From Methanosarcina flavescens (GTDB lineage Archaea; Halobacteriota; Methanosarcinia; Methanosarcinales; Methanosarcinaceae), in the NCBI RefSeq assembly GCF_001304615.2, contig NZ_CP032683.1, positions 2,852,001 through 2,916,000 of the forward strand: a stretch of DNA of 64,000 nt, read 5' to 3'. Made by a program: the position numbers and the translations under genes. The notes below the pieces were generated by a model, which saw only the letters and a program-made list of their open reading frames with translations, made no database searches and had not been told where the DNA came from. How positions within the stretch are numbered: position 1 is the stretch's first letter; each line of letters starts with the position of its first letter. This document shows positions 24,542 to 30,436 of the stretch, one piece after another.

Positions 24542-25141
24542 TTATCCAGAATTACCATTGGATCTGGAGAATTTTCTTACCATTTCTGAAGAGAGTCTTC
24601 CCGAACAGGTCACAATTGTTCTGGAAAAATCCACATTATGTTTTAATCCATAACCTATTACCTTGTCAAGAGCATTGTGTCTGCCTATGTCCTCTATTAT
24701 GCAGATTTTCCCATGAGGTCCAAAAAATCCTACAATATGGATTCCTCCTGTTCTAATGTGAAGATCTGAAACCAGAGTTTCCTTCATTATTTTGCTTATT
24801 GTAGAAGGCTCTATGAGCATATCAGACTGGACTTTTGGAAGCCTGTCAGGATCAAGGTATGATGTATCGCCGCCGCATCCAGAAAGAACAGTTTTACTTG
24901 AAACCATTATCGAAAAAGGATTTTTTTGTCAGAACACCTGCACTAGTGGCAGCAGTATCCTTTTTTCTATACGCAAGGAGTCGATATCTTCCAGTTTGCG
25001 GATTATCCTTTCTGTGTATAGAAAACCTGTTATAAATTCTTCAAGCATTACCGGGCTTATTATTGCAGTTAGAGCATGGCGGCCATTGACAAATACAGAA
25101 AGGGGTACTTCAATCACAACATCATGTGATGAAGAAATCAT
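24542..25141 (-). pseudogene. fdhD: fdhD remnant (formate dehydrogenase sulfurtransferase)
   Basis: FdhD sulfurates the Mo/W cofactor of formate dehydrogenase. This copy begins within the family (HDVVIEVPLSVFVNGRH, lacking the true N-terminus), is interrupted by an in-frame TGA (plus 24929-24931) after ILLPLVQVF, then continues in the same frame as QKNPFSIMVSSKTVLSGCGGD, keeping the catalytic CGG motif region and EDIGRHNALDK. It ends early, after SGRLSSEMVRK, without the last 80 or so residues. Truncated at both ends with an internal stop, so not functional as full-length FdhD. A complete fdhD may exist elsewhere. Confidence 0.8.
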
Positions 25142-25505
25142 TGATCGATTATCACTACGCCTTTTTGACGTAATCTAAACCAGGGAAGCAGGTTAGAATG
25201 ATGTTCGGCAACTGTTGTCACAACTTGGTCCCCAGGCTCCCAGTCCAATCCTGTTACAACAATATTAATGGCTTCTGTCGTATTTTTAGTAAATACATTT
25301 ATCCCTTCTTTCCCACGAATGAAATCACTAACTGTATCATGTGCATCCTGGTACCGCTGGGTTGCAATCCTTGTAAGCCTATGCATCCCCCCTACCAACA
25401 TTAGCACGATATTGTTGGTCATACTCATTCATCGAAGCTACAACTTATTGAGGAATAAGACTGGTTGTAACACTATCCATAGATAGACTCCTAAAGATCG
25501 CCCCT
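25138..25505 (-). pseudogene. N-terminal fragment of a class V aminotransferase / cysteine desulfurase
   Basis: The frame from 25428 holds HRLTRIATQRYQDAHDTV, TKNTTEAINIV and EHHSNLLPW, typical of SufS/NifS-type PLP enzymes before the PLP lysine. Upstream, in another frame, MDSVTTSLIPQ and MNEYDQQYRANVGRG match the family N-terminus but contain a TAA (25445-25447) and are offset by one extra base in the run of six at 25387-25392. The fragment stops at the junction with fdhD, before the active-site Lys. Dead by three lesions. Confidence 0.75.
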
Positions 25506-25625
25506 GAGTTCAGAGCATTTCTGCATACCAGGGCAACTTTCCGAAATAAGAATTTTATCTCAGACAGGTAGGTAGTATACTTCTCGGTCAGCTGCGGAAA
25601 AGAATTAATACTGCTTCACCTGCAG
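25506..25625 (-). pseudogene. degenerate duplicate fragment of mptE
   Basis: About 120 bp resembles the mptE gene at 26.98-27.11 kb on the same strand. Shared words include GCATTTCTGCATACCAGG versus GCATTTCCGCATACCAGG, and the translation LVCRNA/LVCGNA in the middle. Two stop codons interrupt the frame. It directly abuts the cysteine desulfurase fragment. Confidence 0.65.
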
Positions 25626-25792
25626 GAAGGCTAGAAAGTAATATTCTAGGAATAACAGGTAAAAATCTATATCAAAAATATGTAGCCATCAACTCAGGAC
25701 AGGATGATTAATCAGAAGCAATCTCCCGCTTTGAGATGATGGCTGCTGTAGTTTCATCCATGTTCAATAGTTCCAGAGTTCAGTAGTAACTT
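25626..25792. other. remnant sequence of unknown origin
   Basis: The stretch between the mptE-like fragment and the tiny ORF. The plus strand shows short open stretches that I could not assign to any family. It is probably more decayed sequence. Confidence 0.3.
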
Positions 25793-25870
25793 TTAGCACC
25801 AACCACAGCGGCGCCATTTGCGCCAGAACCACCAGTTACGGCAGCCCCAGCCACAATGTCCAAACCACAT
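25793..25870 (-). CDS. 25-residue Trp/Cys/Arg-rich peptide (too short for standard gene calling)
   Basis: A 26-codon frame from ATG (25870) to TAA with a perfect GGAGGT ribosome site (plus 25878-25883) seven bases upstream. The peptide has 7 Trp (positions 2, 8, 13, 14, 16, 19, 24), 4 Cys (6, 10, 22, 25, spaced C-x3-C and C-x2-C) and 6 basic residues in 25. It is much GC-richer than its surroundings. The Cys spacing suggests metal binding or a disulfide/thiolate role; the Trp/Arg content recalls membrane-active peptides. Both ideas are inference. A long hairpin lies 65 bp upstream in the presumed leader. I know no named family for it. Confidence 0.5.
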   Translation of the reverse strand: MWFGHCGWGCRNWWFWRKWRRCGWC

Positions 25871-25934
25871 TATATTTACCTCCACGATTTTGCAGTTTTA
25901 TTTGTTATTTTATGCTTTTCAGATGCTTAGAGGT

Positions 25935-25988
25935 GGACTTTCGGATCAGAGAGTTACACTGGAAAATTACACTCTCTAACCAAAGTCC
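25935..25988 (-). ncRNA. 54-nt two-part stem-loop in the leader of the tiny ORF
   Basis: On the minus strand: GGACTTTGG, then AGAGAGT, a 16-base loop region carrying two GTGTAA copies, ACTCTCT, then CCGAAAGTCC. The outer stem pairs 9-10 bases and the inner 7. It is 65 bp upstream of the 25-residue ORF, on the same strand, so it could be a structured 5' leader or cis-regulator. It could also be a stand-alone small RNA or a transcription stop. Confidence 0.4.
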
Positions 25989-26548
25989 TCAATATCCCCA
26001 CTTATACTTTCACGGCATCTTTTAGAAGTCATTAGAGTTACTTGCTTCCGTTGGAGAGGAATAATTCTGCCATGAAAGTACGATTAAACATATAATTATG
26101 AATTATATAAAAAATCTAGAATAACTGTTTCTTAATATTAATAGTCTTAAGAAAATTGGATAAACCCTCTGTCAGTAAAACAAGCTCACTTTTGCATTTA
26201 TTCCTCAATATCTAATTCTATTAAAACTCTCAATAAATCAGGAGTAATGATCTGTAGACAATCTGTGATTACTATTCAATCAAAAAAAGTAATCTCAAGA
26301 ATAGCCGGGGCTCTATTTCCTGGCTAATTTCAATTTGAAGCCTTAAGAGATTTGCATCTGGTTGGAAAGATTGCACGACTCTTTTTATTTTTAAACTTTA
26401 TAACTTCAATCATTCCTGTTTTAAGTAAAATTTGTATATAAATGGCGGCTGTTCAATAAGATAAGTTTTTTGATTTAACTTATAGATGAAAATAGACGCA
26501 GTAGTAAGCTTATGACATATTATTATCTTTAAATGGACTACTTTCTTT
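25989..26548. other. AT-rich intergenic, no features seen
   Basis: About 560 bp between the stem-loop and the end of mptE. It should hold the promoter for the tiny ORF. I see no gene or repeat. Confidence 0.4.
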
Positions 26549-27190
26549 TTAAAAATCTCCGATTCCTATTAATTTTTTTGCCCACTTTAACTTCTTTTTC
26601 TTAATTGTGTTAACTCTTGGATCTTCAAAATCAAACCCTGCAAGCTTAATATTTTTTGCTCCGAACTCCCTTGCTAAGAAAAAGCATCGGTCTCCGTCGC
26701 TAAACCCCCCAAAATTATACACCTTGTCAAAAGGTTTTGCCTGAGTAGTCGCAATAAATCTCTTAAAGCGAGGTACATATTTCTCGAGTTTATCAATATT
26801 GTCTCCGTGTGCATGGATAAGGACTATAGAACCCTTTTCACAGGCAAGAATCTCTTTCTCAATATCAGCTTCTGAGTTGCCGTCAAGGTCGGTGCAGATA
26901 ACCTCAGGTACAATGCCCATGTCCATAAGAACTGCGGCTGCCCCATCGGCTGCAATTACTGTAAAATCCGAAAAATTGATTTCCGAAAGCTCTCTCCTGA
27001 GTTTGGGAGCATTTCCGCATACCAGGACAGGCTTTCCAGAGATCAGGGCTTTAAGCTCGGATAGGCTGACAGTGTTTTCCTCTGTCAGCTTGCGGGAAAG
27101 AAATTGAGCTGCTTCTTCATCACCGGCACGGTCGAATCCGAAATCCTCAAGTATTTGTTCGTAAATCGGCTCCCAGGCAGCAAAATTCAT
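26549..27190 (-). CDS. mptE: 6-hydroxymethyl-7,8-dihydropterin diphosphokinase (MptE, DUF115)
   Basis: A 213-residue archaeal MptE, which transfers diphosphate to the pterin in tetrahydromethanopterin/sarcinapterin synthesis. Motifs: LVCGNAPKL, VIAADGAAAVLMDMGIVPEV, CTDLDGN, IHAHGDN and GGFSDGDRCFFLA. I start at ATG 27190 (MNFAAWEPIYEQIL), with GGAAAGGA nine bases upstream; a TTG at 27247 gives an atypical 19-residue extension. It follows ileS by 63 bp in the same direction, so an ileS-mptE operon is likely. Confidence 0.92.
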   Translation of the reverse strand: MNFAAWEPIYEQILEDFGFDRAGDEEAAQFLSRKLTEENTVSLSELKALISGKPVLVCGNAPKLRRELSEINFSDFTVIAADGAAAVLMDMGIVPEVICTDLDGNSEADIEKEILACEKGSIVLIHAHGDNIDKLEKYVPRFKRFIATTQAKPFDKVYNFGGFSDGDRCFFLAREFGAKNIKLAGFDFEDPRVNTIKKKKLKWAKKLIGIGDF

Positions 27191-27253
27191 TTCAGTCAGT
27201 CCTTTCCCATTTTGTAGTTTGGCTTCTAACCTCTCTTTGATCTCCAAACCTCT

Positions 27254-30200
27254 TCAGGGTTTACTTTTTGCAATACCCATCTTCATGGCAATGCCCTCGA
27301 CATCCCAGTCTTTCACAAGGGCTCCGGAAACATCGATATCGCTGCCAAGCTCAAGGATATCGGCTCTTACCTCTTCTGCAATCAGATCCTTGAGGGTTTC
27401 AACGAGCTTCAATACTCTTTCATCTCCAATCCGGACCGAGACGCGGATATTTTCATCCACGACAAGGTCAAGTTCTTTCCTCATATCCTGAAGCCTGCGA
27501 ATTACTTCTCTTGCATATCCTTCAGCTTCCAGTTCGGGAGTCAGGTTCGCATCTACATAGACAAGGCCAGCATCGAATTCTGCACTTGCTGTACCTTCGG
27601 GCAGGGTCTCTTTGAAATTTGCCATGTTCGAAGTTACTGTAACCGTTGTTCCGTCTGCAAGGGAGAGTTCAAACTCGCCAGCCTCAGAGAAAGCTTTCTT
27701 CAGGGCAAAGCCGTCAACTTTCTGCAGGGCAGGAATGACTTTTCCTGCATCTTTCTTGAAAACAGGGCCTATTTTGCCCGGGTCTGGAATCACTTCAAGC
27801 CCGAGTTCATCCCAGCTCTTGCCTACAGGCGTCAGCACAATTGCCTTGGAATTAGTCTGATCCATAAGGACTGAGCGCAAGCTCTCGACAGCCTTTGCTG
27901 CATCCTCACTTTCAGGGGAAACAATTATTCGGGATACAGGCCATCTGAGCTTTCTTCCTGCTTTCTGGCGGGCATTTGAGGTGGCTTCCACAATAGAACG
28001 CACAGTGTCCATTGCTGACTCAAGTTCAGGATCGAGATAAGCTTCATTGACTGTCGGCCAATCGCACATATGAACCGATTCCAGTGCGCTCGAGTCTGCG
28101 TTTCGGATCAGGTTCTGGTACATCTCTTCAGCCAGGTAAGGCATGAAAGGCGAGATCAACTTCGTAAGGGTTACATAGACTTCATAAAGCACGCAATAAG
28201 CTGCAAGCTTATCGGGATCCTCAGCCTCGGTCCAGGTTCTTGGGCGGATAAGCTGGATATACCAGCGGGAGAGGTCTTCCAGAATAAACTCCATGATTTC
28301 GCGCACGGCTTTATGCAGCAGATACCCGCTCATCGCTTCGTCCACGGTTTTGACAACGGATTGGACTCTTGAGAGAATCCATCTGTCCTCCACCCTGAGC
28401 GCGTCTTTTACGGAATCCAGGCTAATTTTTAAAGGATTAAAATTGTCAAGCGCCATGTATGGCAGAGGGAACCTGAAAACATTCCAGAGAATATTAATTG
28501 AACGGTGGATAGTTTCCACTTCTTCAAGGTTGAATTTCAGGTCGTCCCAGGGCGCACTTGAAGAAAGCACATAGGCACGCAGGGTATCAGCCCCGAACCT
28601 GCCAACGATATCCATCGGTGAAATCACGTTTCCAAGGCTCTTGGACATTTTCTTTCCGCCCGCATCAAGCGTAAAACCGTGCATGAGCACACTCTTATAT
28701 GGCGCCTGTCCGAAGCCTACCATGCTTGCTCCCAGTTGAGAATAGAACCAGCCACGGGTTTGGTCATGTCCCTCAGTGATAAAGTCAGCAGGCCACCATT
28801 CATCGAACTGCTCCCGTGTCTGCGGGAACTTCAGGGTAGCCCATGAAGCGACAGCCGAATCAAACCAGACATCAAAAACGTCTTCCACGCGCTTCTTCTC
28901 TCCGCCGCACTCACAGGGGATAGTGACTTTATCCACATAGGGTCGGTGAAGTTCGATGTCCCCGGCTGTTCCTGATTTTTCCAGCAGTTCGGCTTTGGTC
29001 CCTATTACCTCAAGCTTTCCGCACTTTTTACACTTCCAGACCGGTATGGGAATTCCCCAGTAACGCTGCCTGGAGATACACCAATCCCGGGCGCCTTCCA
29101 CCCAGGTTCTGAAACGGGCTGAACCTGCCCAATCAGGGTACCAGTCTACAGCATCGATTTCCTCAAGCATCTTATCTTTTATCTCGGTAACTTTGAGGAA
29201 CCACTGTTCGGTTGCCAGATAGATAATGGGCGTTTTGCAGCGCCAGCAGTGCCCGTACCTGTGCGTGATTGTCCCTTCCGCAAGCAACCTGTTGCGTTCC
29301 CTGAGATCTTCAACTATAATCGGGTTTGCTTCCCTTACATTCTTGCCTGCATATTCCCCGGCTTCCTCGGTATAGGAACCATTCGGGCCCACCGGGCAGA
29401 GAATCGGAAGGTTATACTTCACACCAAGGTTAAAGTCATCCAGACCGTGTCCAGGGGCGATATGTACACAGCCTGTGTTTTCTACAGCTACGAAATCGGC
29501 AAGATAAACTCCGTGCTTTATCTCATTCTGGATGGGCACAAGATCCCAGACAGGGCTTTCGTACTCAAGTTTTGTAAGCTTGTCACCGCGCATCGTTTCA
29601 AGTACTTCGTAGTCAACATACCTTCCCTGTTTAAGGACATTTTTGATAAGGTCTGTAGCCGTAATCAAAATTTCTTCGGAACCGTCCTGCCTGATAGCTC
29701 TGAATTTCGAGTATTCAAAGTCTGGATGTACGGCTACAGCTACGTTTGCAGGAATTGTCCAGGGGGTTGTTGTCCAGATGACTATGAAGGTGTTTTCCTC
29801 ACCTTTGACCTTGAATTTCACATAAATGGAAGGGTCGGTTCTTTCGGAATATTCAACCTCTGAATCCGCAATTGCCGTCTCACAGCGTGGGCACCAGTTG
29901 ACCGAGCGCTTGCCAACTTCAAGCAGGGCTTTTTCGTTTGCCTGCTTAAGGGTCCACCAGGCAGCCTCGATGTAGTTGTCTTTTAAGGTCATGTAGGGGT
30001 CTTCCCAGTTCATCCAGACCCCAAGCCTCTGGAATTGTTCGGTCATTGCCTGTTTCTGGGTGAGAGCGAATTCCTTGCATTTTTCAATGAAATTCTCTAC
30101 CCCAAAGCTCTCTATGTCCTTTTTCGATTTGAAGCCTAGCACACCTTCGACTTTGACCTCGATTGGCAGGCCGTGCATATCCCAGCCCGGGCGCTCGAGG

Positions 30201-30436
30201 ATATTATGGTTATTCATGGAATAATAGCGAAGAATGGAGTCTTTAATGATCTTGTTCCAGGCAGTCCCAAGGTGGATATGTCCGGTCGTATATGGGGGTC
30301 CATCAACAAAAAAAAGCTTTTTTCCGGTCTTGCGGTGCTCTCGGGTTTTTCGATAAGCTTCGCTATCTTCCCAGAGCTGCGTTACCTTCTTTTCGATTTG
30401 CTCTGCATTATATTTGGCAGTGATTTCTTTTATCAT
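27254..30436 (-). CDS. ileS: isoleucyl-tRNA synthetase
   Basis: A 1060-residue class I synthetase charging tRNA-Ile. Motifs: [11 protein letters not shown] (HIGH-type signature), editing domain in residues 200-400 ([15 protein letters not shown]), GWFYSQL, and KMSKSLGN near residue 600. The anticodon-binding domain and a C-terminal zinc-less extension follow. The size and the C-terminal layout fit the archaeal/eukaryotic type. Intact over 3.2 kb. Confidence 0.97.

Follow-up and report, generated by a model that had tools for sequence, protein, structure and literature searches.

A Trp/Cys-rich micropeptide ORF in Methanosarcina and a candidate genus-specific family of micropeptide cassettes beside ileS- and mptE-like genes

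Described small-protein systems and the micropeptide ORF

The closest described systems are the spRNAs and sORFs of Methanosarcina mazei (sP26, sP36 and sP41; PMC11456600), which are short intergenic mRNAs encoding small proteins in the same genus. That Ribo-seq study reports 314 unannotated translated sORFs, and the targets of the small proteins sP26 and sP36 are GlnA1 and AmtB1 (PMC11456600). In the passages searched, its main text describes no such cassette family, shared promoter and leader or ileS-mptE array, and single members may be contained in its supplements (PMC11456600). As candidates for the spRNA kind, the cassettes described here show, at the sequence level, a promoter, a Shine-Dalgarno sequence, selection on the peptide and a 3' hairpin. 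Among the titles and abstracts found for Methanosarcina RiPPs, type I toxins and structured RNAs, none describes the cassette family, and single members may stand in supplements or in older spRNA papers; the family of micropeptide genes is apparently undescribed.

Two other groups offer points of comparison. The bacterial type I toxins (Ldr, Ibs, AapA and TisB) are very short peptides of membrane type that occur in multiple copies, frequently in tandem, have long structured leaders and are narrowly distributed. The cassettes resemble them in copy number and tandem arrangement, peptide length, leader and range, whereas they are archaeal, Trp/Cys/Gly- or Tyr-rich and without conserved occlusion of the Shine-Dalgarno, and have an antisense RNA that is at most putative. 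Indolicidin and tachyplesin are Trp/Arg-rich and beta-hairpin antimicrobial peptides of animals, made as secreted precursors. They share with the cassette peptides their length and a Trp/Arg/Cys or Phe/Arg/Cys composition, which is a lead from composition only, and they differ in that the cassette ORFs have no evident signal sequence.

The ORF under study lies in a 64-kb window (the whole stretch of DNA that was analysed) of a Methanosarcina genome composed of a single contig of 3,283,688 bases. It is encoded on the minus strand, with its ATG at 25870 and its stop codon (TAA) ending at 25793; the plus strand at 25793-25870 reads LAPTTAAPFAPEP... and not the peptide. The gene and its ribosome binding site are:

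25793..25870, minus strand: micropeptide ORF MWFGHCGWGCRNWWFWRKWRRCGWC, with 0 nonsynonymous and 3 synonymous changes relative to its ortholog
25878..25883, minus strand: Shine-Dalgarno GGAGGT, 7 bases from the ATG, kept in the alignment of relatives

The first-pass annotation had reported a Trp/Cys/basic peptide of 25 residues, a GGAGGT seven bases from its ATG and a frame GC-richer than its surroundings, and all three observations were reproduced, with the strand now given as minus. The peptide has seven Trp, four Cys and six basic residues including His, with Cys pairs C6-x3-C10 and C22-x2-C25. At 0.58, the G+C content of the ORF exceeds that of its 300-base flanks (0.32 and 0.40), a difference due to the Trp, Cys, Gly and Arg codons. 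Within the 64 kb it is the sole ORF of 15-60 aa with GGAGG 5-10 bases from the ATG, and 60 dinucleotide-preserving shuffles of the window yielded no such ORF with at least five Trp and at least three Cys.

A second copy of the region (paralog, 77% identical) is located 354 kb away in the same genome, and the counterpart in the sister genome G016 is 89% identical. Between the ORF and its G016 ortholog there are three substitutions, all synonymous, together with one Trp codon inserted and one deleted, both in frame. Over 19 pairs of related peptides, pS was 0.21 and pN 0.06 (pN/pS about 0.29), which is a pooled figure, single pairs being short, not all independent and in a few cases without a synonymous excess; the changes at codon positions 1, 2 and 3 numbered 41, 41 and 93. 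The alternative Gly/Ala-rich frame 2 was rejected, as every change in the closest pair affects a third codon position of the Trp/Cys frame. The earlier expectation that relatives would keep the Cys spacing with silent changes was borne out for the silent changes, accompanied by in-frame indels, but not for the spacing, since Cys6 alone is invariant among 16 short relatives. Taken as a pattern of substitution, this tiny Trp/Cys/Arg-rich frame looks like a genuine, conserved short gene under purifying selection. Its shortness would suit a chance ORF without function, a reading that is scarcely credible and was rejected, being contradicted by the ortholog and paralog, the synonymous pattern, the genus-wide conservation, the shared promoter and the shuffles.

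Promoter, leader RNA and hairpins

Missed by the first-pass annotation were a common promoter, a structured leader and the arrays that such genes form next to mptE. The elements around the ORF in the window are:

26090..26124, minus strand: shared promoter element TTATTCTA-N5-TTTATATAATT..., with 1 mismatch to the family pattern and a TATA box at about 26103-26111
26003..26082, minus strand: 5' leader hairpin P1 (GTACTTTCATGGCA ... TGCCGTGAAAGTAT), duplex of -21.4 kcal/mol, with covariation in the family and a weak match to model R1 (E 0.033); transcription putatively starts at its first base
25935..25988, minus strand: second leader hairpin (GGACTTTGGTTAGAGAG ... CTCTCTGATCCGAAAGTCC), a predicted fold whose conservation in the short class is less clear than that of P1
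25683..25744, minus strand: 3' hairpin AGCCATCATCTCA ... TGAGTTGATGGCT downstream of the ORF, duplex of -18.9 kcal/mol

The promoter box of the cassettes is TTATTCTA-N5-TTTATATAA; a variant of AGTTATTCTA-N5-TTTATATAATTT precedes most genes or tandem pairs, and the leader starts with GTACTTTC or a variant 25-30 nt past the promoter. Sites matching the promoter pattern were found in 19 of the 31 genus genomes, most of them upstream of small ORFs, while the reversed pattern, used as control, gave no site in the same 31 genomes. The leaders have approximately 190-310 nt and open with a long P1 hairpin, before a strong Shine-Dalgarno.

Pairing of the P1 arms in 60 leaders has a mean of -17.9 kcal/mol versus -9.4 with shuffled downstream sequence, and falls below the 5th percentile of the control in 55 of the 60. 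Eleven of 15 P1 pairs are doubly changed among 25 diverse leaders, versus 3-5 in slid controls. The long class covaries in P1 and in two further helices; the short class alone is too similar for much double change in P1. The whole leader of the window has a fold z-score of -2.8. Only weak matches, far below the gathering threshold, were found in Rfam. On the 3' side, a GCCATC...GATGGC hairpin follows a number of ORFs of several classes, as counted with a strict motif that missed variants and had no shuffled control.

A conserved switch that masks the Shine-Dalgarno was considered and rejected. Mean accessibility over 42 cassettes is 0.47 versus 0.41 with shuffled leaders, and among the closest relatives only the window copy is strongly masked, its ortholog not being so. 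The idea of an attenuator or leader peptide serving some biosynthesis gene downstream was rejected as well, as the long-class genes that come next have a promoter and a leader of their own. An antisense TATA-like motif occurs at leader position 160-200 approximately in 14 instances, and is overall commoner than in shuffles; possible readings are a promoter on the antisense strand, an internal promoter or element on the sense strand, and a segment of a helix.

The ileS-mptE array, peptide classes and distribution in the genus

The cassette of the window follows two larger genes on the same strand, and decayed copies of one of them are found at other loci:

27254..30436, minus strand: ileS-like gene (read as isoleucyl-tRNA synthetase), 1060-aa ORF of cluster c2, conserved upstream neighbour of the array
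26549..27247, minus strand: mptE-like gene (read as similar to 6-hydroxymethylpterin pyrophosphokinase), 232-aa ORF of cluster c1, a conserved neighbour that lies directly upstream of the cassette
L046 11847-12209; L059 6475-6927; L188 3048-3480; L189 3262-3725; L190 1-391: decayed extra mptE copies upstream of cassettes, in second loci

The ileS-like cluster c2 adjoins the array in most of the loci compared, and homologues of the peptide occur at the same site (ileS-mptE-peptide) in many Methanosarcina, sometimes as tandem pairs. At about 0.9 and 2.2 kb beyond the short peptide genes come relatives that are longer, with 52-81 aa. The array is split between two places in the genome of the window and in G016, and occupies one place in G007. 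At the second locus L131 a decayed mptE likewise stands beside a cassette. These loci read as duplication of a unit made of the mptE end and the cassette, after which mptE would have decayed and the cassette stayed open.

Some sequence near the arrays falls outside the cassettes. Downstream of the ORF, positions 25513-25640 of the window resemble the interior of mptE (a 23-base repeat at 91%, the rest judged by eye) and are probably a decayed mptE fragment. Just downstream of the cassette, positions 24542-25428 (minus strand) have fragmentary FdhD- and cysteine desulfurase-like ORFs, named by eye, which are probably remnants. A 15-base repeat array, TGGACACTTAAATAC, lies behind the last long-class gene at L056 12813-12917.

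Most leaders are followed by one or, often, two tandem micro-ORFs, nearly all with a strong Shine-Dalgarno. The short class has 25-35 aa and the pattern MWFGxCGWGG...WRRW...CGWGG.W; the long class, of 52-81 aa, is Gly- and Cys-rich and in many members has the motif CCITAVRACKIK. Overall there are Trp/Cys/Gly, Gly/Cys, Tyr/Phe and Phe/Arg/Cys classes, whose sequences look unrelated and which have in common their short length, the Shine-Dalgarno, the aromatic content and a mostly positive charge. Among 22 chosen peptides the aromatic content is 16-48%, the charge is mostly positive and some have no Cys; two classes are near neutral or negative. At the ileS-mptE site, a genome of 5,751,492 bases (presumably M. 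acetivorans C2A), in which the region immediately after mptE spans about 3.0128-3.0153 Mb, encodes MCFFFFRFICIRIRCCVPRFYWRCC, two identical copies of MCCGFGFNNWGWGFRHRFWGRGCGCGWGGGCGGWGGC, and MGFFSLYYNKIIAYYESTQLYIWAGWD, and one of 4,142,816 bases, which we take to be M. mazei, encodes MCGCYSFFNLKWCFFKIKFFKCFQNFCGCR and MGFFSLYYSKVTVIYSKTTLSIFGWFF. No family was matched in Pfam, NCBIfam or PHROGs at E up to 1 by the representatives scanned, and the long-class profile has no match in PDB. The AlphaFold model of one long-class member has a mean pLDDT of 38.

Many of these low-complexity peptides were missed by protein and profile searches (profile A2 was too variable for contig scans), and members were therefore sought with DNA patterns and RNA models. 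Of 31 Methanosarcina genomes, 25 are matched by the P1 covariance model at E up to 1, mostly by hits far stronger than that limit; the model matched no other genus in a 100-genome sample of the order, run under stricter filters than the genus census. The short class, including the window copy (E 0.033 in 471 kb), is weak with this model because it was left out of it; its membership rests on promoter, stem and alignment A5. Searched against 238 genomes of the class, the long-class profile matched Methanosarcina alone. A virus origin was rejected, no relative of the long class being found in viral contigs.

Some leaders precede something other than a micropeptide. At L178 2546-2638 (minus strand) a leader of the same family (E 1.9e-7) precedes a gene for a protein longer than 100 aa, which has many Tyr and Gly residues and a signal-like N terminus and may itself belong to the regulon proposed below. 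The leader copies at L046 9326-9450 (minus strand), L058 14256-14380 and L130 512-636 have no evident aromatic micro-ORF behind them, and are either decayed cassettes or RNA-only members.

Proposed role and alternatives

The cassette anatomy, the selection on the peptide, the hairpin covariation, the restriction to the genus among the genomes searched and the ileS-mptE array are demonstrated by the comparisons above. As an explanation, we tentatively propose, at a confidence just short of probable, that the micropeptide ORF is a gene that is translated and belongs to a multicopy family of cassettes specific to Methanosarcina, whose peptides act at the membrane or envelope under common control. 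Each cassette would be a small, separate transcription unit with promoter, leader, Shine-Dalgarno and one or two tandem micro-ORFs, many with a 3' hairpin. The micro-ORFs would be translated, the common promoter and leader would make the peptides a co-regulated set, and the terminal hairpins may stabilise or gate the short mRNA. From their composition, the aromatic, mostly cationic peptides may act at the cell membrane or envelope as self-acting toxin-like or stress peptides, an action that would tolerate fast sequence change at constant composition. Such a composition fits contact with membrane or nucleic acid and proves nothing. In favour of the cassette-family reading we count the cassettes kept open beside decaying mptE duplicates; against it, a convincing aromatic ORF is missing after some leaders, the charge of two peptide classes departs from the rest, and the short-class leaders are weak with the general model.

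The leaders without a clear ORF bear also on the view that the RNA is the main product, a structured and perhaps dual-function small RNA whose 5' and 3' hairpins act in trans while the short ORF is secondary. Cassettes with peptides too different to align still have a recognisable leader, and the 2024 M. mazei study, in the part consulted, allows that translated sRNAs may be dual-function RNAs (PMC11456600). RNA as the main product is made unlikely by the in-frame indels and purifying selection in the peptides, by the strong Shine-Dalgarno on nearly all ORFs and by a tandem duplication that copied the ORF but not its leader. In a type I toxin-antitoxin-like locus, which we consider quite unlikely here, an antisense RNA would silence the structured mRNA of a membrane toxin. 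The short peptides, aromatic and cationic, the multicopy arrays in tandem, the restricted range, the long structured leader and the 14 antisense TATA-like motifs would agree with it, but occlusion of the Shine-Dalgarno is not conserved, and the motif may instead be an element of the sense strand or belong to a hairpin.

The Gly/Cys-rich sequences, their diversification and the tandem copies could also be those of RiPP or bacteriocin-like precursors modified by enzymes encoded elsewhere. Clustering and inspection by eye place ileS, mptE, an ATPase-like ORF and various other genes beside the arrays, with no constant maturase or exporter gene among them, and this origin is improbable. Metal binding, proposed by the first-pass annotation from the Cys spacing, would make the product a metallothionein-like, small zinc knuckle or redox peptide. 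Four Cys in 25 aa, and 12 in one long-class member, speak for it. Conserved paired Cys, as in a zinc or iron-sulfur micro-protein, were not found: the short class has one invariant Cys and some sister classes have none (for instance, the sister-cassette peptides MGYFTLYYSNYKVVYERTKLYMRARW and MYIENFVILLSQKFKVIFNDWF), and the absence of family and PDB matches noted above also counts against it. As a common function of the family metal binding is not supported, and such a peptide is very improbable here.

Returning to the cassette family, it is possible, though held with reserve, that it constitutes a regulon specific to the genus. In this regulon a single leader, structured and conserved and possibly responsive to a ligand or to stress, would control a rapidly diversifying array of aromatic micropeptides. 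The peptide would be exchanged or remodelled between lineages, with the RNA control and the site remaining fixed, and this would be a new kind of archaeal RNA-controlled micropeptide system. Archaeal small proteins have mostly been found singly; here, a whole family with a common promoter, leader RNA and genomic site emerges from sequence alone. Since the family sits in genetically tractable methanogens, the function of archaeal micropeptides becomes directly testable. The leader is itself a new structured-RNA candidate and, if it senses a signal, would be an uncommon archaeal cis-regulatory RNA.
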